The notes beneath the pieces are model-generated. The model did no database searches. It worked only from the letters and a program-made list of their open reading frames with translations, and was not told where the DNA came from. From contig NZ_JADDUE010000002.1 in NCBI RefSeq assembly GCF_016526145.1, positions 575,121-639,120 of the forward strand: a stretch of 64,000 nt of DNA, written 5' to 3'. This document shows, one piece after another, positions 31,674 through 38,179 of the stretch (position 1 is the first letter of the stretch; the number at the start of each line of letters is the position of its first letter). A program made the position numbers and the translations under genes. The stretch is from Saccharopolyspora galaxeae (GTDB lineage: Bacteria; Actinomycetota; Actinomycetes; Mycobacteriales; Pseudonocardiaceae).

Positions 31674-32024
31674 ATGCGCACCAGCGGTCTATCCCGGATC
31701 GGCATCGCCGCAGCGATCATGCTCTGCGGCGCCCCCACCGCCCAGGCCCAGCCCGCGCCGGACACTCGCGCCGGCTCCGTCTGGGACCGGCTGGCCCAAT
31801 GTGAATCCGGTGGGAACTGGGCCATCAACAGCGGCAACGGCTACTACGGCGGTTTGCAGTTCAACCGCGGCACCTGGGTTTCGCACGGCGGCAGGGACTT
31901 CGCCGCCTACCCGCACCGCGCCTCCCGCGAAGAGCAGATCTCCGTCGCCACCTCGCTGCGCGACGCCCGCGGTGGATACGGCGCTTGGCCCGCCTGCGCC
32001 CGCCAGCTCGGCCTGCCGCGCTGA
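31674..32024 (+). CDS. Small secreted resuscitation-promoting factor
   Basis: 116 residues: a signal peptide (cleavage probably after AQA at 25) followed by a single transglycosylase-like Rpf domain, with catalytic Glu44 in LAQCESGGNWAINSGNG and the ending GYGAWPACARQLGLP. Rpf proteins cut peptidoglycan and wake dormant cells. It is the minimal RpfC/E type, with no extra domains, and lies directly before rpfB. Its domain is closely similar to that at the end of rpfB, so local duplication is likely. Confidence 0.9.
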   Translation: MRTSGLSRIGIAAAIMLCGAPTAQAQPAPDTRAGSVWDRLAQCESGGNWAINSGNGYYGGLQFNRGTWVSHGGRDFAAYPHRASREEQISVATSLRDARGGYGAWPACARQLGLPR

Positions 32025-32050: not shown

Positions 32051-32632
32051 AGCAGAATCTTGATCCCAAAAGTGCCCCCGAGCGTGTGAGCGAACACCCA
32101 TCGCGATCACCCAACGCATCCGCGGGGCCGCAGAACGCCGGCGGCGGGAGATGTGTCCGCTCTCCCGCCGCTTGGCCTGGAGGCCGTCGCCGAGCGCCCG
32201 CGCGCACCGGCTCCGACGGCCCTTTCGATCTCCTCACCAGCAGCGACGTCCGTCCTTATTGGACTTACGGGCGGGGTGCGGGAACTCCTTGCGGGGATGG
32301 GAAAATCCTCCGGGCCGAACAACTAGATGATCACCCAGGGTGCTGGGTTGCCCGGCAAAACGGCGTAACCCAAGTCACAGTGCTCGATCGGGCTCTTGGC
32401 GCACTGGTCGCATCACGCTAGAGTCTCGGCCTCGTAACCGATGACAACGAAGTCATGGGGAACACCCGCTAGTCGCCGCCGGGTTTCGTCGGGGAAGTCG
32501 GTGCCGAGCGGGCGGACCGGGACAGGACCGGTTCCGCACGTGGCAACGGCTATGACGGCGCTTGGCTACGGGAGTCGGATACGGAGACGAAGCACGAAGT
32601 CGCGCAGCGGCGGATGAAGGAGTTCACCAAGC
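32051..32632 (+). other. Non-coding stretch with the rpfB promoter and leader
   Basis: No convincing gene. TTGGCG (32396-32401) and TAGAGT (32419-32424), 17 bases apart, make a good promoter, predicting a structured leader of about 270 bases before rpfB. Actinobacterial rpf genes often have c-di-AMP (ydaO) riboswitches; I see GGGGAAC at 32457-32463 but not the conserved 3' half of that class, so I do not call one. Confidence 0.5.
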
Positions 32633-32704
32633 ATGGCCGGCGAACTCCACGGGATCATCGACGCTGCGGAGAGCTTCCGCTTTCGAGAGGTAGCGACCCT
32701 GTGA
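32633..32704 (+). CDS. 23-residue upstream ORF overlapping the rpfB start
   Basis: ATG 32633 lies 10 bases after AAGGAG and encodes a peptide starting MAGELHGIIDAAESF and ending FREVATL. Its TGA overlaps the GTG of rpfB as GTGA, the same coupling geometry used within the chs operon. The GTG itself has only a weak site (AGAGG, 11 bases away), so translation of the short ORF probably feeds rpfB. Whether the peptide has a function is unknown. Confidence 0.5.
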   Translation: MAGELHGIIDAAESFRFREVATL

Positions 32705-34269
32705 ACGGACGCGGCATTCCCGGTGCCCATGCCAGCAATTCCCGCGGCAATACCGGCCGGGACCACGGCTACTGGGCCGATTCGCTTGAACCGGTTACGG
32801 ACTGGTTCACCCCGGTGAGCAAGGAGCAGCCCACCGCGGTCGGCGTGCTGGACCGGCCGGTCGAACTCGATCGCGAGAGCGATCTGGAGATCACCGCCGA
32901 CCACGGCTTCGCCCCCATCAGCGGCGGGAACTACCCCGCCGCCGACCACCCCAGCTTCCCGCCGGGAACACTGGACATCACCCCGGACGACGTCTTCGAG
33001 GCGCTCGGGCCGCAGGCCGACGAGATGCTCGCCACCGCCGACATCGACGTGGACGAGCTGATCCGGCTGGTCAACGCCGAAACCGTCGTGCTGCCGCCGC
33101 TGGTGCTGCCGGACGACGTGCCGGAGACCGACGCCGAGGGCAACCCGGCACCGGAGTTCGTCGAAGCCGTCACCGACTGGAAGCAGCGCTTCCTCAAGGG
33201 CGCGGTCGCCGCGGTGATCGTCACCCTGGCCGGCTCCGGCGGTGCCGCCGCGGCCATGGACAAGTCCGTGACCGTCGAGGTGGACGGCCAGGAGCGCCAG
33301 GTCAACACCTACGACTCCACCGTGGGTGAAGTCCTGCAGGAAGAGGGCATCAACGTCGGCCCGCACGACGCGCTGAGCCCGTCCCCGCAGGCCCAGGTCG
33401 GGCACAACGACACGATCACGCTGGACCGCGGCCGGCTGGTGAAGATGACCGTGGACGGCCAGCCCCGCGAGGAGTGGGTGCGGTCGGTGACCGTCGACCA
33501 GGCGCTGCGCCAGCTCGGCGTGCCCGCCGACGGCGCGTTCGTCTCGGCCGACCGGAACATGGAAGTGCCCGAGCAGGGCATGGACCTCACGGTCAACACC
33601 GCCAAGGACATCACCGTCACCGACGGCGGCGAGGCGCCGCGCCAGCTGACCACCACCGCGGTCACCGTCGACGACCTGGTCAAGGAGCAGAAGCTCCAGC
33701 TCGGGCCGGAGGACCACATCACCCCCGGCGGCGACCAGAAGATCACCGACGGCGCGCAGGTGCAGATCAACCGCACCGGCAGCAAGGTGGTCAACCTGAC
33801 GCAGCCGGTGCAGCCGCCCGTGCAGGAGATCGTCGACGACTCGATGTTCCAGGGCGAGGAGAAGGTCGAGAAGCAGGGCACGCCCGGCGAGAAGATCGTC
33901 TTCACCCGCATCACCACCAAGAACGGTGAGGAGACCGGGCGCGAGGCGGTCGGCGAGAAGATCACGAAGGAAGCCACGCCGACGGTCAAGCGCGTCGGTG
34001 GCAAGGAACCGCCGAACAGCGCCATCTGGGACAAGCTGGTGCAGTGCGAGGCCGGCGGGAACTGGGCCATCAACAGCGGCAACGGCTACTACGGCGGCCT
34101 GCAGTTCGACAAGCAGACCTGGAGCGCCTTCGGCGGCGACCAGTTCGCGGCCTATCCGCACCAGGCCAGCCGGGAGCAGCAGATCCAGGTCGCGACCAAG
34201 GTTCGCGACTCGCGCGGCGGCGGCTACGGCGCTTGGCCGGGCTGCTCCTCCAAGCTCGGTCTGAGCTGA
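32701..34269 (+). CDS. rpfB: Resuscitation-promoting factor RpfB with N-terminal cytoplasmic extension
   Basis: 522 residues from GTG 32701. Residues 1-160 are acidic and soluble; a membrane anchor follows (about 163-185, LKGAVAAVIVTLAGSGGAAAA), then three DUF348 domains, a G5 domain (about 365-430) and the Rpf transglycosylase domain at the end with Glu450 in VQCEAGGNW. From the anchor on, it has the architecture of Mtb RpfB (Rv1009, about 360 residues); the 160-residue part before it is extra. The start choice rests on the GTGA overlap with a leader ORF; the frame is open farther upstream. It is a peptidoglycan-cleaving factor anchored outside the membrane. Confidence 0.92.
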   Translation: MNGRGIPGAHASNSRGNTGRDHGYWADSLEPVTDWFTPVSKEQPTAVGVLDRPVELDRESDLEITADHGFAPISGGNYPAADHPSFPPGTLDITPDDVFEALGPQADEMLATADIDVDELIRLVNAETVVLPPLVLPDDVPETDAEGNPAPEFVEAVTDWKQRFLKGAVAAVIVTLAGSGGAAAAMDKSVTVEVDGQERQVNTYDSTVGEVLQEEGINVGPHDALSPSPQAQVGHNDTITLDRGRLVKMTVDGQPREEWVRSVTVDQALRQLGVPADGAFVSADRNMEVPEQGMDLTVNTAKDITVTDGGEAPRQLTTTAVTVDDLVKEQKLQLGPEDHITPGGDQKITDGAQVQINRTGSKVVNLTQPVQPPVQEIVDDSMFQGEEKVEKQGTPGEKIVFTRITTKNGEETGREAVGEKITKEATPTVKRVGGKEPPNSAIWDKLVQCEAGGNWAINSGNGYYGGLQFDKQTWSAFGGDQFAAYPHQASREQQIQVATKVRDSRGGGYGAWPGCSSKLGLS

Positions 34270-34450: not shown

Positions 34451-35326
34451 GTGGAAAGTGACGCGGACAGGGCGCGGTTGCTGGGGCCCGCCGATGTTCG
34501 CCGGCTGGCGGAGGACCTGGGGATCCGCCCCACCAAGAAGCTCGGCCAGAACTTCGTGCACGACCCGAACACCGTGCGCCGCATCGTCGGCGCCGCCGGG
34601 CTCACGGCCGACGACGTGGTCCTGGAGATCGGCCCCGGATTGGGCTCGCTCACGCTGGCGCTGCTGTCGGCGGCGCGCGGGGTCGTCGCGGTGGAGGTCG
34701 ATCCCGCGCTCGCGGAGCGGCTGCCGCGCACGGCGGCCGAGTTCGCCCCGGGCCTCGCGGACCGCCTCCGAGTGCTCAGCGCCGACGCGTTGCGGGTGCA
34801 CGCCGACGACTTCGCAGCAGACCCGCCGACCGCGCTGGTGGCGAACCTGCCGTACAACGTCGCCGTGCCGGTGGTGCTGCACCTGCTGGCGGAGCTGCCG
34901 TCGCTGCGCAAGGGCCTGGTGATGGTGCAGTCCGAGGTCGCCGACCGGCTCGCGGCGAAACCCGGCGGCCGCACTTACGGGCTCCCGAGCGCGAAAGCGG
35001 CGTGGTTCGCCGAGGTGCGCCGCGCGGGCCCGGTGCCGCGGACCGTGTTCTGGCCGGTGCCGAACGTGGATTCGGGCCTGGTTTCGTTCTCCCGCACCGA
35101 TCCGCCGTCGAGCGCGGACCGCGCCGAGGTGTTCCGCGTGCTGGACGCCGCGTTCGCGCAGCGGCGCAAGACGTTGCGGGCGGCGCTGTCCGGATGGGCC
35201 GGTTCGGCGGCGCGTGCCGAGGAGTTGTTGCGCGCGGCCGGGGTCGATCCGACGGCTCGCGGCGAGCAGCTCACGGTCGAAGATTTCGCCCGGGTGGCCG
35301 CAGCGGGCGCCGAATCCGTGCGCTGA
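34451..35326 (+). CDS. rsmA: 16S rRNA adenine1518/1519 dimethyltransferase
   Basis: 291 residues. Starts at GTG 34451, 7 bases after TAGGTT, so probably leaderless. Rossmann methyltransferase with [10 protein letters not shown], the SAM loop [14 protein letters not shown] and the catalytic [15 protein letters not shown]. It dimethylates two adenines in helix 45 during ribosome assembly; loss gives kasugamycin resistance. It follows rpfB as in mycobacteria (ksgA, Rv1010). Normal length. Confidence 0.95.
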
Positions 35327-35490: not shown

Positions 35491-35522
35491 TTGCGTTCGC
35501 GGACACGACTGGGTTCTACTAT
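35491..35522 (+). promoter_or_regulatory. Candidate promoter of the SAM riboswitch transcript
   Basis: TTGCGT (35491-35496) and TACTAT (35517-35522), 20 bases apart. The spacing is long, but the -10 is good and places the start at about 35529, directly before the first base of the aptamer. Confidence 0.45.
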
Positions 35523-35530
35523 CCGGGAAA

Positions 35531-35614
35531 TCCATCCCGAGCGGCCGAGAGACCTGGCTCGACGACGCCGCAGCAACCACCCCGTGGGCAGGTGCTAACG
35601 CCAGGGCCGATGGA
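35531..35614 (+). promoter_or_regulatory. SAM riboswitch (S-box type)
   Basis: The core S-box sequences are all present: AGAGACCTGGC, the kink-turn/pseudoknot segment GACGACGCCGCAGCAACC, and CAGGTGCTAACGCCAG. P1 is TCCAT (35531-35535) with ATGGA (35610-35614), extended by CGGCC with GGCCG. The class binds S-adenosylmethionine and shuts down methionine import and synthesis genes. No terminator follows. The 3' strand of P1 contains the GGA of a GGAG site serving the GTG at 35621, so SAM binding would hide that site: translational control. Confidence 0.88.
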
Positions 35615-35620
35615 GTCGAC

Positions 35621-35890
35621 GTGTTTGAAACTCCGCTGACCGGCGCCCGGCCCGGGTTCGCCCAGTCCGCGTTCGCTCAGTCCGGGTCCGCCCAGCTCGG
35701 GAGCGCCCAGCTCGAGATCGCCCAGCTCAAGATCGCGCTGCCCGGCAGCACGGGCGCGCAGCACGACAAGCTCCGGCGAACCGCCCGCGGCGGCCGCGCC
35801 CGCGCGCGCTCCGCGCCGCACGGGCTCGCGCTCACCCAGCGCCGCATCATCGATCAAGGACGGCGCACGACCACGGCCTGTCGCGGCTAG
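35621..35890 (+). CDS. Small Gln/Ala-rich repeat protein downstream of the SAM riboswitch
   Basis: 89 residues from GTG 35621, with GGAG 5 bases upstream inside the riboswitch P1 stem. The first half has six five-residue repeats (GFAQS, AFAQS, GSAQL, GSAQL, EIAQL, KIALP) encoded by 15-base units; the second half is Arg-rich. Third codon positions are strongly G/C, as in real genes here. I do not recognise the family. It could be a true protein, or a leader ORF that keeps ribosomes on the mRNA before the metN-like gene 120 bases downstream. Confidence 0.4.
   Translation: MFETPLTGARPGFAQSAFAQSGSAQLGSAQLEIAQLKIALPGSTGAQHDKLRRTARGGRARARSAPHGLALTQRRIIDQGRRTTTACRG
35654..35743 (+). repeat. 15-bp tandem repeats in the small ORF
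   Basis: Six 15-base units with the common core CGCCCAG (35654-35668, then every 15 bases to 35743), progressively diverged. They keep the frame of the 89-residue ORF. Confidence 0.75.
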
Positions 35891-35903
35891 CTGCCCGAGC
35901 CAC

Positions 35904-35929
35904 CGAATCCGGTCCGCCGGGCCGGTTCG
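35904..35929 (+). terminator. Hairpin between the small ORF and the metN-like gene
   Basis: CGAATCCGGTCC (35904-35915) pairs with GGGCCGGTTCG (35919-35929), one bulged base. It lies 13 bases after the small ORF's TAG and could reduce read-through into the metN-like gene. Confidence 0.4.
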
Positions 35930-36010
35930 GGCCAGCGAACCAGCGTTTCCTTCCGGCCGGTCGATGCGCAGCAGCCTGCGCTCCCGGAGTGAGCTGATGT
36001 GGAGCCGAAC

Positions 36011-37012
36011 ATGATCACTGTCGAGAACCTGAGCAAATCCTTCCGCGGCGAATCCCGCGCAGGCGCCGTCGCGCTCGACGACGTGTCCCTGGAGGTCCCC
36101 GCCGGGTCGGTGTGCGGCGTGGTCGGTCCCAGCGATGCGGGCAAGTCCGCCCTCGCCCGCTGCGTCGGGTTGCTGGACAAGCCGGACCGCGGTGCCGTGA
36201 AGATCGACGGGACGAACCTCTCCGCGCTGGACGGCGCCGCGCTGCGCGCCGCCCGCAGACACATCGGCGTGGTCCCGGACGGCGACTCGCTGCTGCGCCA
36301 GCGCACCGCCGCGGGCAACGTGGCGCTGCCGCTGGAAGCCGCCGAGATGCCCGGGCCGCAACGCCGCGCCCGCGTCGCCGAACTGCTCGACCTGGTCGGC
36401 ATGACCGACAAGGCGCCGCTGCACCCGGAACAGCTGACCGACGGCCAGCGGCGGCGGGTCGCGGTCGCCCGCGCGCTCGCGGCCAAGCCCTCGGTCCTGG
36501 TGGCCGACGAGCCGACCGCCGGGTTGGACTCGTCGACCGCGGAGGCGGTGCTGACGGTGCTCGACCGCGCGCGCTCCGAGCTGGGTGCCACGGTGCTGTT
36601 GACCACTGCGGACACCGCCGTGGTGCGGCGCATCGCCGACGAGGCGGTGGTCCTCGACGGCGGCCGGGTCGTCGAGCAGGGCAAGGTGCTCGACCTGGTC
36701 TCCGAGCCGGGCAGCCGCCTCGGCACCAGCTTGCTGCCGGACGCCGGATCCGGCCGCAGGCACGACGTGGTCGCCGAGGTGGTGCTGGTCGGTTTCGCCG
36801 CCGTCGGCGCGCTGCTGCCGGAAGCGGCCGGGCGGTTCGGCGTGGACCTGGCCGTGCTGGGCGGCGGCATGACGCGGCTCGGGGACACGCCGGTGGCGAA
36901 GTTCCGCATCGGGCTCACCGGTGAGCGCTCCGAGGCCGCGCTGAAGTGGATGGTCGACCGGGACGCGCAGGTGCGCCGCACTCCGGTCAGCGTCGAAGGC
37001 GTGGCCGCCTGA
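36011..37012 (+). CDS. MetN-like ABC ATPase with NIL domain, catalytically degenerate and orphan
   Basis: 333 residues from ATG 36011 (GGAG 6 bases upstream). It aligns with methionine-importer ATPase MetN along the whole length, including a C-terminal NIL ligand-sensing domain (about 255-330). Walker A (GPSDAGKS, 39-46) and Walker B (VADE, Glu167) remain, but the Q-loop Gln is Asp90 (IGVVPDGDSLL), the signature LSGGQ is LTDGQ (142-146) and the H-loop His is Ala200 (LLTTADTAVV). No MetI permease or MetQ binding protein gene is nearby; ispE follows. With the SAM riboswitch upstream, it looks like a relic or repurposed sensor of a methionine importer. Confidence 0.82.
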   Translation: MITVENLSKSFRGESRAGAVALDDVSLEVPAGSVCGVVGPSDAGKSALARCVGLLDKPDRGAVKIDGTNLSALDGAALRAARRHIGVVPDGDSLLRQRTAAGNVALPLEAAEMPGPQRRARVAELLDLVGMTDKAPLHPEQLTDGQRRRVAVARALAAKPSVLVADEPTAGLDSSTAEAVLTVLDRARSELGATVLLTTADTAVVRRIADEAVVLDGGRVVEQGKVLDLVSEPGSRLGTSLLPDAGSGRRHDVVAEVVLVGFAAVGALLPEAAGRFGVDLAVLGGGMTRLGDTPVAKFRIGLTGERSEAALKWMVDRDAQVRRTPVSVEGVAA

Positions 37013-37056
37013 TCCCCGAACTGGGATCGCGGAAATAGCAGACGGCGTCCCTTGCG

Positions 37057-37151
37057 GTGCCGCTGCACTCGGAATCCTCCGAAGCGCGCAGCAGCGGCAC
37101 AAGAACCGACCGGCCGCCGGCCGAGCCCGTGCACCGGGCTCGACCGGCGGC
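37057..37151 (+). terminator. Two hairpins after the metN-like gene
   Basis: GTGCCGCTGC (37057-37066) is repeated inverted at 37091-37100, and a much stronger 17-base stem pairs 37113-37129 with 37135-37151 around a 5-base loop. They separate the metN-like transcript from ispE. Confidence 0.6.
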
Positions 37152-37222
37152 CGCGTGCTGCGAAGTCGGTGCTGGGGCGGCACCCGGATCGCGCGGACAC
37201 GTACGCTCTAGGAGTGCTCTCC

Positions 37223-38179
37223 GTGGTACCCACCCCCATCACCGTGCGTGTTCCGGCCAAGGTGAACCTGCACCTGGCGGTCGGCGACGCTCGCCCGGAC
37301 GGTTACCACGAGCTGGTCACCGTCTTCCAGGCCTTGTCGCTGACCGACGAGGTCACCGTGCACAGCGCCGACGAGCCGGGCATCGACGTCCGCGGCGACG
37401 GCGCCGACTCGGTGCCGACCGGGCAGAGCAACCTGGCGTGGACGGCGGTGCGGCTGCTGGCCGAGCACTCCGGCCGCGACCCGGAAGAGCCGGGCGTGCA
37501 GGTCTCGATCCGCAAGGGCATCCCGGTGGCCGGCGGAATGGCGGGCGGCAGCGCCGACGCCGCGGCCGCGCTGCTGGCGCTGAACACGCTGTGGCGCCTG
37601 GAGATCGGGCGCGACGAGCTCAGCGACATCGCCGCCAAGATCGGCAGCGATGTGCCGTTCGCGTTGCAGGGCGGCACCGCGCTGGGCACCGGCCGCGGCG
37701 AGCGGCTCGTGCCGGTTCTCGCCAGGCACACCTTCCACTGGGTGATCGCGCTGGACCGCCGCGGCCTGGAAACCCCCGGTGTGTACGGCGAGCTGGACCG
37801 GTTGCGCGCCGACACCGGGCCGAACCGGGTCGGCGAGGTCGAGCCGCTGCTGGAGGCGCTGGCCTCCGGCGATCCGAACCAGCTGGCCCTGCTGCTGGGC
37901 AACGACCTGCAGTCCGCGGCGGTCTCGCTGCGCCCGAACCTGCGCCGCACGCTGCGCGCCGGCGTGGAGGCGGGCGCGCTGGCCGGGATCGTGTCCGGCT
38001 CCGGACCGACCTGCGCGTTCCTGTGCACCGACAACGACTCCGCGGTCCGGGTCGCCGCGGAACTGTCCGGCGCGGGCGTGTGCCGCACCGTCCGGGTCGC
38101 GCAGGGGCCGGTGCCGGGAGCCCGGATCATCGGCGACGACCGGGCCGACCGGCCCACGCCGCCGCAGGTGCACGCCTGA
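37223..38179 (+). CDS. ispE: 4-diphosphocytidyl-2-C-methyl-D-erythritol kinase
   Basis: 318 residues of the GHMP kinase family, fourth step of the MEP isoprenoid pathway. Motifs: [23 protein letters not shown], the ATP loop [21 protein letters not shown], and the C-terminal [14 protein letters not shown]. Two starts are possible: GTG 37223 with AGGAG 8 bases upstream, or GTG 37214, 6 bases after TACGCT (leaderless). The Mtb protein starts at the equivalent of the later one. Order rsmA-ispE is conserved with Rv1010-Rv1011. Confidence 0.94.

Follow-up and report, generated by a model that had tools for sequence, protein, structure and literature searches.

Several described systems bear on the locus reported here. 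In the available text of PMC10710835, methionine regulates the E. coli importer MetNI through the C2 domain. The NIL domain also occurs in methionine metabolism in the NIL/ferredoxin proteins MA1822 and DvMF_0262 of the DUF39 homocysteine pathway (PMC5764234, available part). Concerning control elements, a 2005 survey (PMC1262725) is on record, in its available part, as finding that the methionine operons of the actinobacteria it covered have no conserved RNA structure in front of them, and Cys-rich upstream open reading frames are described ahead of cysA2 and other genes in the accessible part of PMC4633059. A search of the literature outside subscription journals and preprints found no description of the gene or system treated here. 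The original prediction suggested that it could be a methionine/SAM-responsive sensor or a regulator of another system, or else a decaying relic; of these, the sensor or regulator remains the leading reading of the sequence comparisons given below.

The metN locus of the window genome

The window (the whole 64,000-nt stretch analysed) belongs to a genome of 6.40 Mb that is 99.99% complete. The features of the locus, which occupies the slot between rsmA and ispE, are collected in Table 1, with residues numbered from ATG 36011. GTG 35999 is also possible as the start of the metN-like gene, and in ORF 35999-37012 both ABC_tran and NIL scored above the Pfam cut-offs. An AF2 model of the protein (pLDDT 91) gave, by Foldseek, a full-length match to E. 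coli MetN 3tui (TM 0.82, 36% identity). Pfam, Foldseek and the protein and nucleotide metN trees thus agree on the NBD plus NIL fold of the protein and on its descent from MetN. The top NCBIfam model was likewise MetN (TIGR02314), with 227.3 bits versus an equivalog cut-off of 499.7. This score was dropped as a mark of degeneration, because the intact MetN of the sister species G002, which has metI and metQ, also misses the cut-off (276.7 bits). Since the MetN model is the best NCBIfam match of the window protein, annotation pipelines may well read orphan metN as methionine import where no importer exists.

Table 1. Features of the metN slot, with coordinates on the forward strand of the window.
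Feature	Position	Strand	Basis or remark
rsmA (ksgA), upstream slot marker	34451..35326	+	ORF
SAM-I riboswitch aptamer	35529..35616	+	RF00162 61.8 bits vs gathering score 44.4; 105.9 bits with family model R1
GGAG, Shine-Dalgarno-like	35612..35615	+	first two G within 3′ strand of helix P1 (model structure); putative role
Leader peptide ORF of 89 aa, starting at GTG, with C-terminal end ...LTQRRIIDQGRRTTTACRG	35621..35890	+	conserved core pattern
metN-derived putative pseudo-ATPase	36011..37012	+	333 aa from ATG 36011; Pfam ABC_tran + NIL
Walker A GPSDAGKSA	36125..36151	+	mostly GPSGAGKST in orthologues with metI/metQ; K45 kept, two further substitutions
Q-loop position, Asp90 replacing Gln	36278..36280	+	residue comparison with orthologues
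Signature LTDGQ (142-146) replacing LSGGQ	36434..36448	+	residue comparison
Walker B Asp166 and catalytic Glu167, both kept	36506..36511	+	Glu replaced by Asp in 43/59 scorable orphans
H-loop position, Ala200 replacing His	36608..36610	+	Gly in G074, second genome of the same species
NIL domain	36773..36973	+	PF09383 33.6 bits vs gathering cut-off 24
Place of metI/metQ in four sister species	37013..37213	+	gap alignment: window shorter by a net 1.6-2.0 kb, with about 145 nt that do not align in its place
ispE, downstream slot marker	37214..38179	+	tblastn, 94% to the sister's ispE

The absence of metI and metQ from the neighbourhood, claimed in the original prediction, was borne out, none adjoining the window metN. 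The whole genome was also searched, with 0 matches for MetQ (PF03180, E<=0.001) and 0 for MetI (E<=1e-6), and it contains a single NIL domain. As none matched at these thresholds, pairing of the protein with metI/metQ located elsewhere in the window genome was set aside. Four species of the same genus (G001-G004) have, at the same place, the order rsmA, riboswitch, metN, metI, metQ, ispE, and alignment with them locates the missing DNA between the metN stop and the ispE leader. From this arrangement in the sisters, it can be deduced that the window gene is the remainder of a metNIQ importer operon after deletion of metI and metQ. Another genome from the species of the window, G074, likewise carries metN as an orphan, and this metN differs from that of the window by 2 amino-acid changes and 0 silent changes over 327 codons, one of the former being at the H-loop.

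Concerning the catalytic residues, the substitutions originally reported at the Q-loop, signature and H-loop are exact, and Walker A and B are kept as claimed (K45, D166 and E167 present), with two further changes in Walker A. So, from the set formed by Q-loop, LSGGQ, catalytic Glu and H-loop, three are lost in the window protein and the Glu is kept. Judging by partner genes and catalytic residues, the window protein would not be a working importer subunit, and it probably does not hydrolyse ATP. Methionine binding is not readable from its sequence, because the position aligned with E. coli MetN Asn295, a methionine-binding residue (occupied by Ala in the 6cvl chain), varies even among the importers of Pseudonocardiaceae.

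Elsewhere in the window, two genes of the forward strand (31674-32024 and 32614-34269) each have a C-terminal transglycosylase-like domain (PF06737), and the second additionally has three DUF348 stretches and one G5 domain; both are presumably resuscitation-promoting factors.

Orphan and importer loci across the Pseudonocardiaceae

The NIL variant was present in 240 of the 297 Pseudonocardiaceae genomes searched; in an order-level search it appeared in 19 of 150 genomes, all of them Pseudonocardiaceae. A total of 119 loci, including that of the window, were gathered by hand-picking for spread over genera. They were found via similarity to the window MetN or its NIL domain, a procedure by which metI/metQ loci without metN would be missed. 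Eight were left out (three paralogues outside the slot, four outgroup importers and one contig-end fragment). The remaining 111 slot loci, with rsmA located in 105, comprised 50 with both metI and metQ (importers) and 61 with neither (orphans). Among 80 loci from named genomes, which overlap with the 111 and are not an independent sample, 61 had metI and metQ and 19 had neither. The orphan taxa include Prauserella, Saccharomonospora, Kibdelosporangium, Amycolatopsis acidicola, Herbihabitans and Gandjariella. MetN-NIL paralogues with altered motifs were seen outside the rsmA-ispE slot (L067 in G014, L173 in G251 and L071 in G016); they showed no riboswitch by model R1, and no metI/metQ match in the DNA fetched around them.

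Degeneration was scored at the Q-loop Gln, the second signature Gly, the catalytic Glu and the H-loop His. All 50 importer loci were intact at the four positions (Q, G, E, H). With two frameshifted orphans (G172 and G187) omitted from the residue count, 57 of the 59 scorable orphans were degenerate: 41 had lost all four residues, 14 had lost three and 2 had lost two. The importer-invariant positions lost in orphans lie mainly at or around the Q-loop, signature, D-loop and H-loop. The orphans G026 and G088, of the same genus, keep fully intact ATPase motifs (NBD omega 0.015), and the third sampled member of that genus, G116, still has metI and metQ. The occurrence of intact-motif orphans beside a congener that bears the importer suggests that partner loss precedes motor loss, G026 and G088 being an apparent intermediate after the loss of metI/metQ.

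The Walker A Lys was retained in 55 of the 59 scorable orphans. This, together with the constraint on the NIL domain described below, would fit an abundant, non-catalytic methionine- or ATP-binding protein that acts as a buffer without any regulatory target. Such a buffer seems improbable, as the Lys was lost in 4 genomes of two genera (g4 and g62) where the gene is still present, and as repression by SAM, which is to be expected, would be more in keeping with a protein induced by scarcity than with a store.

The residues immediately following the Q-loop are the usual docking place of the coupling helices of a permease. Four of them (D94, S95, L97 and R98) are invariant in importers and gone in most orphans, which suggests that no permease partner exists there. 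The window species and G009 retain D94, S95 and L97, and the window protein also retains the fourth. The search for MetI gave no match in 14 of 24 orphan genomes, that of the window included, and nothing over the cut-off was found for MetQ in 13 of 17. A distant second MetI (33-35% identity) was found in 6 of the 24, with MetQ too in the four of them covered by the MetQ search. Since no MetI was found and most orphans no longer have the post-Q-loop residues (the window protein still does), orphan MetN is probably soluble. The best rival to this interpretation is that the protein is a regulatory or energising subunit docked on another, foreign ABC permease. It would be consistent with the residues retained after the Q-loop in the window protein, with the stretch R100-T101-x-A103-x-N105...P109-L110-E111, conserved in importers and orphans alike, and with G026 and G088, whose motifs stayed intact after metI/metQ loss and whose genomes each have another MetI-like permease. 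We consider it unlikely, given the post-Q-loop losses in most orphans and the unmatched MetI in those 14 genomes (a figure limited to MetI-type searches), and because no normal motor is possible without H-loop, signature Gly and Q-loop.

The SAM riboswitch placed by the original prediction in front of the metN-like gene scored over the RF00162 gathering score, being thus predicted from sequence and structure model. It does precede metN but does not directly adjoin it, the leader-peptide ORF lying between them; this "small ORF" of the first description is, by its conserved core, a Cys-type leader peptide. Every one of the 111 slot loci has the aptamer, the scores averaging 105.3 bits in importers and 104.1 bits in orphans. 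In 110 of these loci a GGAG overlaps the P1 strand end, the other one having GGGAG. In all 111 an in-frame start codon for the leader lies 4-15 nt past P1, and the leader core RR-x-V/I-D-xx-RR-xxx-A/G-C (a loose pattern) is found. The order riboswitch, small ORF, metN without metI/metQ, which had been proposed as something to look for in relatives, is kept in 61 of 61 orphans. The leader has 89 aa in the window versus about 23-56 aa in relatives with the core frame picked; the window peptide is lengthened by short near-repeats (FAQSAFAQSGSAQLGSAQLEIAQ) that its four sister species do not show. Folding of the leader alone gave an uninformative signal (z 0.52).

The idea that the riboswitch is kept for its own sake was set aside after considering the 57 family genomes without a NIL match. 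From 18 of them queried, 17 yielded an ispE locus, and none had a convincing aptamer around ispE in the DNA fetched (best scores 16.1 and 15.1 bits). In 8 of the 17, rsmA directly adjoins ispE; in the other 9 the fetched DNA did not include rsmA, and an aptamer further upstream is possible there. The only other SAM riboswitch match of the window genome (L001:1501-1628, i.e., G000:C31:159705-159832, minus strand) lies before a threonine synthase gene (TIGR00260, 271 bits, minus strand), and it ties the SAM level to the threonine/methionine branch point.

The number of metI/metQ losses was estimated on a midpoint-rooted rsmA+ispE tree of 110 tips (G126 left out for gaps), with weak deep nodes, where Dollo counted 10 losses and Fitch 5. 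In this tree the window species falls inside its genus (support 100), G009 beside g58 (99), g23 beside G116 (100) and G114 beside the g20 importers (94). In the nucleotide metN tree the window gene joins those of the sister species in its genus (0.93), G009 joins the importer-bearing g58 (0.91), G021 the importer-bearing G033 (0.93), and g23 clusters with G116 (1.0); unlike the rsmA+ispE tree, this tree places G114 with the big orphan clade. Taken together, the trees indicate around five or more independent losses, namely in the window species, G009, G021, g23 and the big clade, with or without G114. In the protein tree the window gene and G009 form one group, and G021 and G114 fall among other orphans. 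This looks like convergence, except perhaps for G114, as shared parallel changes are expected to produce such clustering. All five degenerate lineages that were compared, namely the window species, G009, G021, G114 and most members of the big clade, show the replacements Q150R, S172A and S181A (G002 numbering). Spread of a single degenerate copy by horizontal transfer was rejected, since the nucleotide tree separates the orphans that the protein tree joins, G114 excepted.

Selection on the NBD and NIL domains

Codon omegas were obtained with a custom-written F3x4 model, in which silent sites are saturated on long branches and whose values differ from those of YN00. On the window lineage, the NBD omega was 0.132 versus a background of 0.042 (p=3e-4), and it was below 1 (p=2e-9). 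The NIL omega was 0.081 versus 0.067 (p=0.76), also below 1 (p=2e-5), so that the NIL domain, which scored over the PF09383 cut-off, is intact as originally stated and constrained like that of intact importers. With YN00, pairwise comparison of the window gene with two sisters gave 0.37-0.43 for the NBD and 0.07-0.10 for NIL. The NBD omega was also raised in G009, G114 and G021 (0.14-0.16), with no significant rise in NIL, although the NIL value of G021 (0.235) is not clearly below 1 (p=0.052) and that of G009 is not usable (branch length 11.4). No significant rise was seen by the codon model on the g23 stem or on three importer control branches. Over four lineages, the ratio of lineage-specific amino-acid to silent changes was 142:32 for the NBD, compared with 21:21 for NIL (Fisher p=8e-5).

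In the established orphan clades, the codon model gave 0.030-0.064 (NBD) and 0.004-0.114 (NIL) for eight groups, and 0.015 and 0.000, respectively, for g23; the six importer groups gave 0.003-0.045 and 0.024-0.100. The ranges overlap, with the orphan NBD somewhat higher. By YN00, 20 within-genus orphan pairs gave NBD omegas of 0.006-0.234 in 19 (one not computable), and NIL omegas of 0-0.280 in 18, with one not computable and one outlier, G190/G234, at 0.70. The raised NBD and unraised NIL values, together with the low values of established clades, would therefore mean that after partner loss the motor was released for a time, NIL not clearly so, and that in established clades constraint has returned to the entire protein. 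Strong selection and loss of catalytic residues are, in this family, well supported.

These data bear on the possibility, raised in the original prediction, that the gene is a decaying relic, drifting since the loss of metI/metQ and with an open frame that is an accident of time. Some observations go in that direction: the window NBD has accumulated 37 lineage-specific amino-acid changes versus 2 in the sisters, at an omega three times the background and higher still by YN00; G172 and G187, both draft genomes, have one frameshift each; and there is the G190/G234 outlier. For the window species, the claim thus holds insofar as the NBD is relaxed, but not beyond that, as its omega is significantly below 1 and NIL is unchanged; neither a broken frame nor an omega near 1, as a pseudogene would have, was found. 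As a general explanation for the family, the relic is largely refuted: none of the 61 orphans has lost the riboswitch or the leader peptide, the frame is uninterrupted in 59 of them, and omegas in the orphan clades tested are far below 1, overlapping the importer ranges in the established ones. Random decay in relatives, by frameshifts or high dN/dS, was therefore not what the comparison showed, and we regard the relic as quite improbable.

Another explanation would need only the open frame, with metN kept open to let transcripts extend into ispE, the essential gene downstream of it (polarity). In the window, ispE does follow metN on the same strand, after a gap of about 200 nt. Nevertheless, this explanation is highly improbable, as the amino acids themselves are under selection, an antisense transporter gene separates metN and ispE in four loci read, and metN is constrained (omega 0.061 NBD, 0.014 NIL) in six orphan loci with a metN-ispE gap of 2.2-2.4 kb.

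The antisense gene occurs in part of the orphan clade (L056, L058, L059 and L060 read; MFS_1 by Pfam in one locus), and similar gaps of 2.2-2.4 kb are present in other loci of g15, g21, g27 and g64. Not being universal, this MFS gene was set aside as a conserved new partner.

Possible role and comparison with known systems

The best reading of the data, to which we would give an even chance, is that of a soluble pseudo-ATPase that does not hydrolyse ATP and has been retained, under control of the SAM riboswitch, as a ligand sensor or regulator. Comparison of the loci shows that metI and metQ were lost from the SAM-riboswitch-controlled metNIQ operon in several lineages. In nearly all of them, residues required to hydrolyse ATP and to form the nucleotide sandwich disappeared (those of the Q-loop, the H-loop and the D-loop region, the second signature Gly and often the catalytic Glu), partly via identical replacements, while purifying selection continued to act on the fold, on Walker A/B and on NIL. 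Concerning ligand, partner and regulatory role, we infer the following. In the putatively soluble pseudo-ATPase, the NIL dimer may sense methionine or a related sulfur ligand, a role assigned because the equivalent domain, in the available account, regulates E. coli MetNI by methionine; the protein would then act on a non-transport target. As to expression, SAM would close P1 and hide the Shine-Dalgarno sequence of the leader; when SAM is scarce, P1 would open, freeing that sequence, so that the leader would be translated and metN expressed. Cysteine supply is perhaps a second input, through the leader peptide.

Several observations speak against the sensor reading: the variability, even in importers, of the position aligned with E. 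coli Asn295, the orphans G026 and G088 with intact motifs, the 6 of 24 orphans with a distant second MetI, the two frameshifted orphans, the relaxed NBD of the window, and the difference of G074 by 2 amino acids and 0 silent changes.

As metN is kept when metI and metQ go, the importer MetN of Pseudonocardiaceae probably already had a second role, and the repeated conversion to an orphan pseudo-ATPase under a kept riboswitch points to a second job for MetN. A wider formulation is more tentative, its probability falling somewhat short of even. MetN would be at once importer motor and methionine-state regulator; on loss of the importer the regulator would be kept and the motor would die. This would have happened several times over, in part through the same substitutions, and would have produced a family of pseudo-ATPase sensors controlled by SAM riboswitch and leader. 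The metNIQ leftover origin and the repetition of the same conversion across the Pseudonocardiaceae go beyond the original prediction. The slot amounts to a natural experiment, in which the partners of one and the same transporter ATPase were lost on some five or more occasions and the gene was kept in the sampled loci; in nearly all sampled orphans the ATPase appears switched off as an enzyme, with the SAM riboswitch still in front. The idea that an ABC importer ATPase has a job apart from transport is directly testable here.

Compared with the E. coli MetNI-Q importer (MetN with C2/NIL; PDB 3dhw, 3tui, 6cvl), the window protein has the same full-length fold and domain order, its NIL sitting where the C2 domain stands; unlike that system, the window genome has no MetI/MetQ matches, and the Q-loop, signature, D-loop-region and H-loop residues are lost. 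With the NIL/ferredoxin proteins it shares, according to the available part of their description, a NIL domain outside a transporter; they differ in that a ferredoxin domain is named and no ABC domain is mentioned in that part, and they have no common context with the slot. The slot leader resembles the mycobacterial Ms5788A-type leaders (NF042933, presumably the same family as the uORF upstream of cysA2) in being a short conserved peptide, with a Cys-containing core at its end, before a sulfur gene. It differs in having no Cys run and in standing behind a SAM riboswitch; the NF042933 model gave no match for the window peptide and a weak one for a relative's, among three tested (16.2 bits versus a cut-off of 45, E=0.006). 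Finally, the slot riboswitch shares the aptamer core with the SAM-I (S-box) riboswitches found before methionine genes and, in the importer-bearing relatives, a methionine-importer operon as target. It differs from them in its apparent control via a P1 helix that overlaps the Shine-Dalgarno sequence of a leader peptide, and in having been retained past the loss of the importer.
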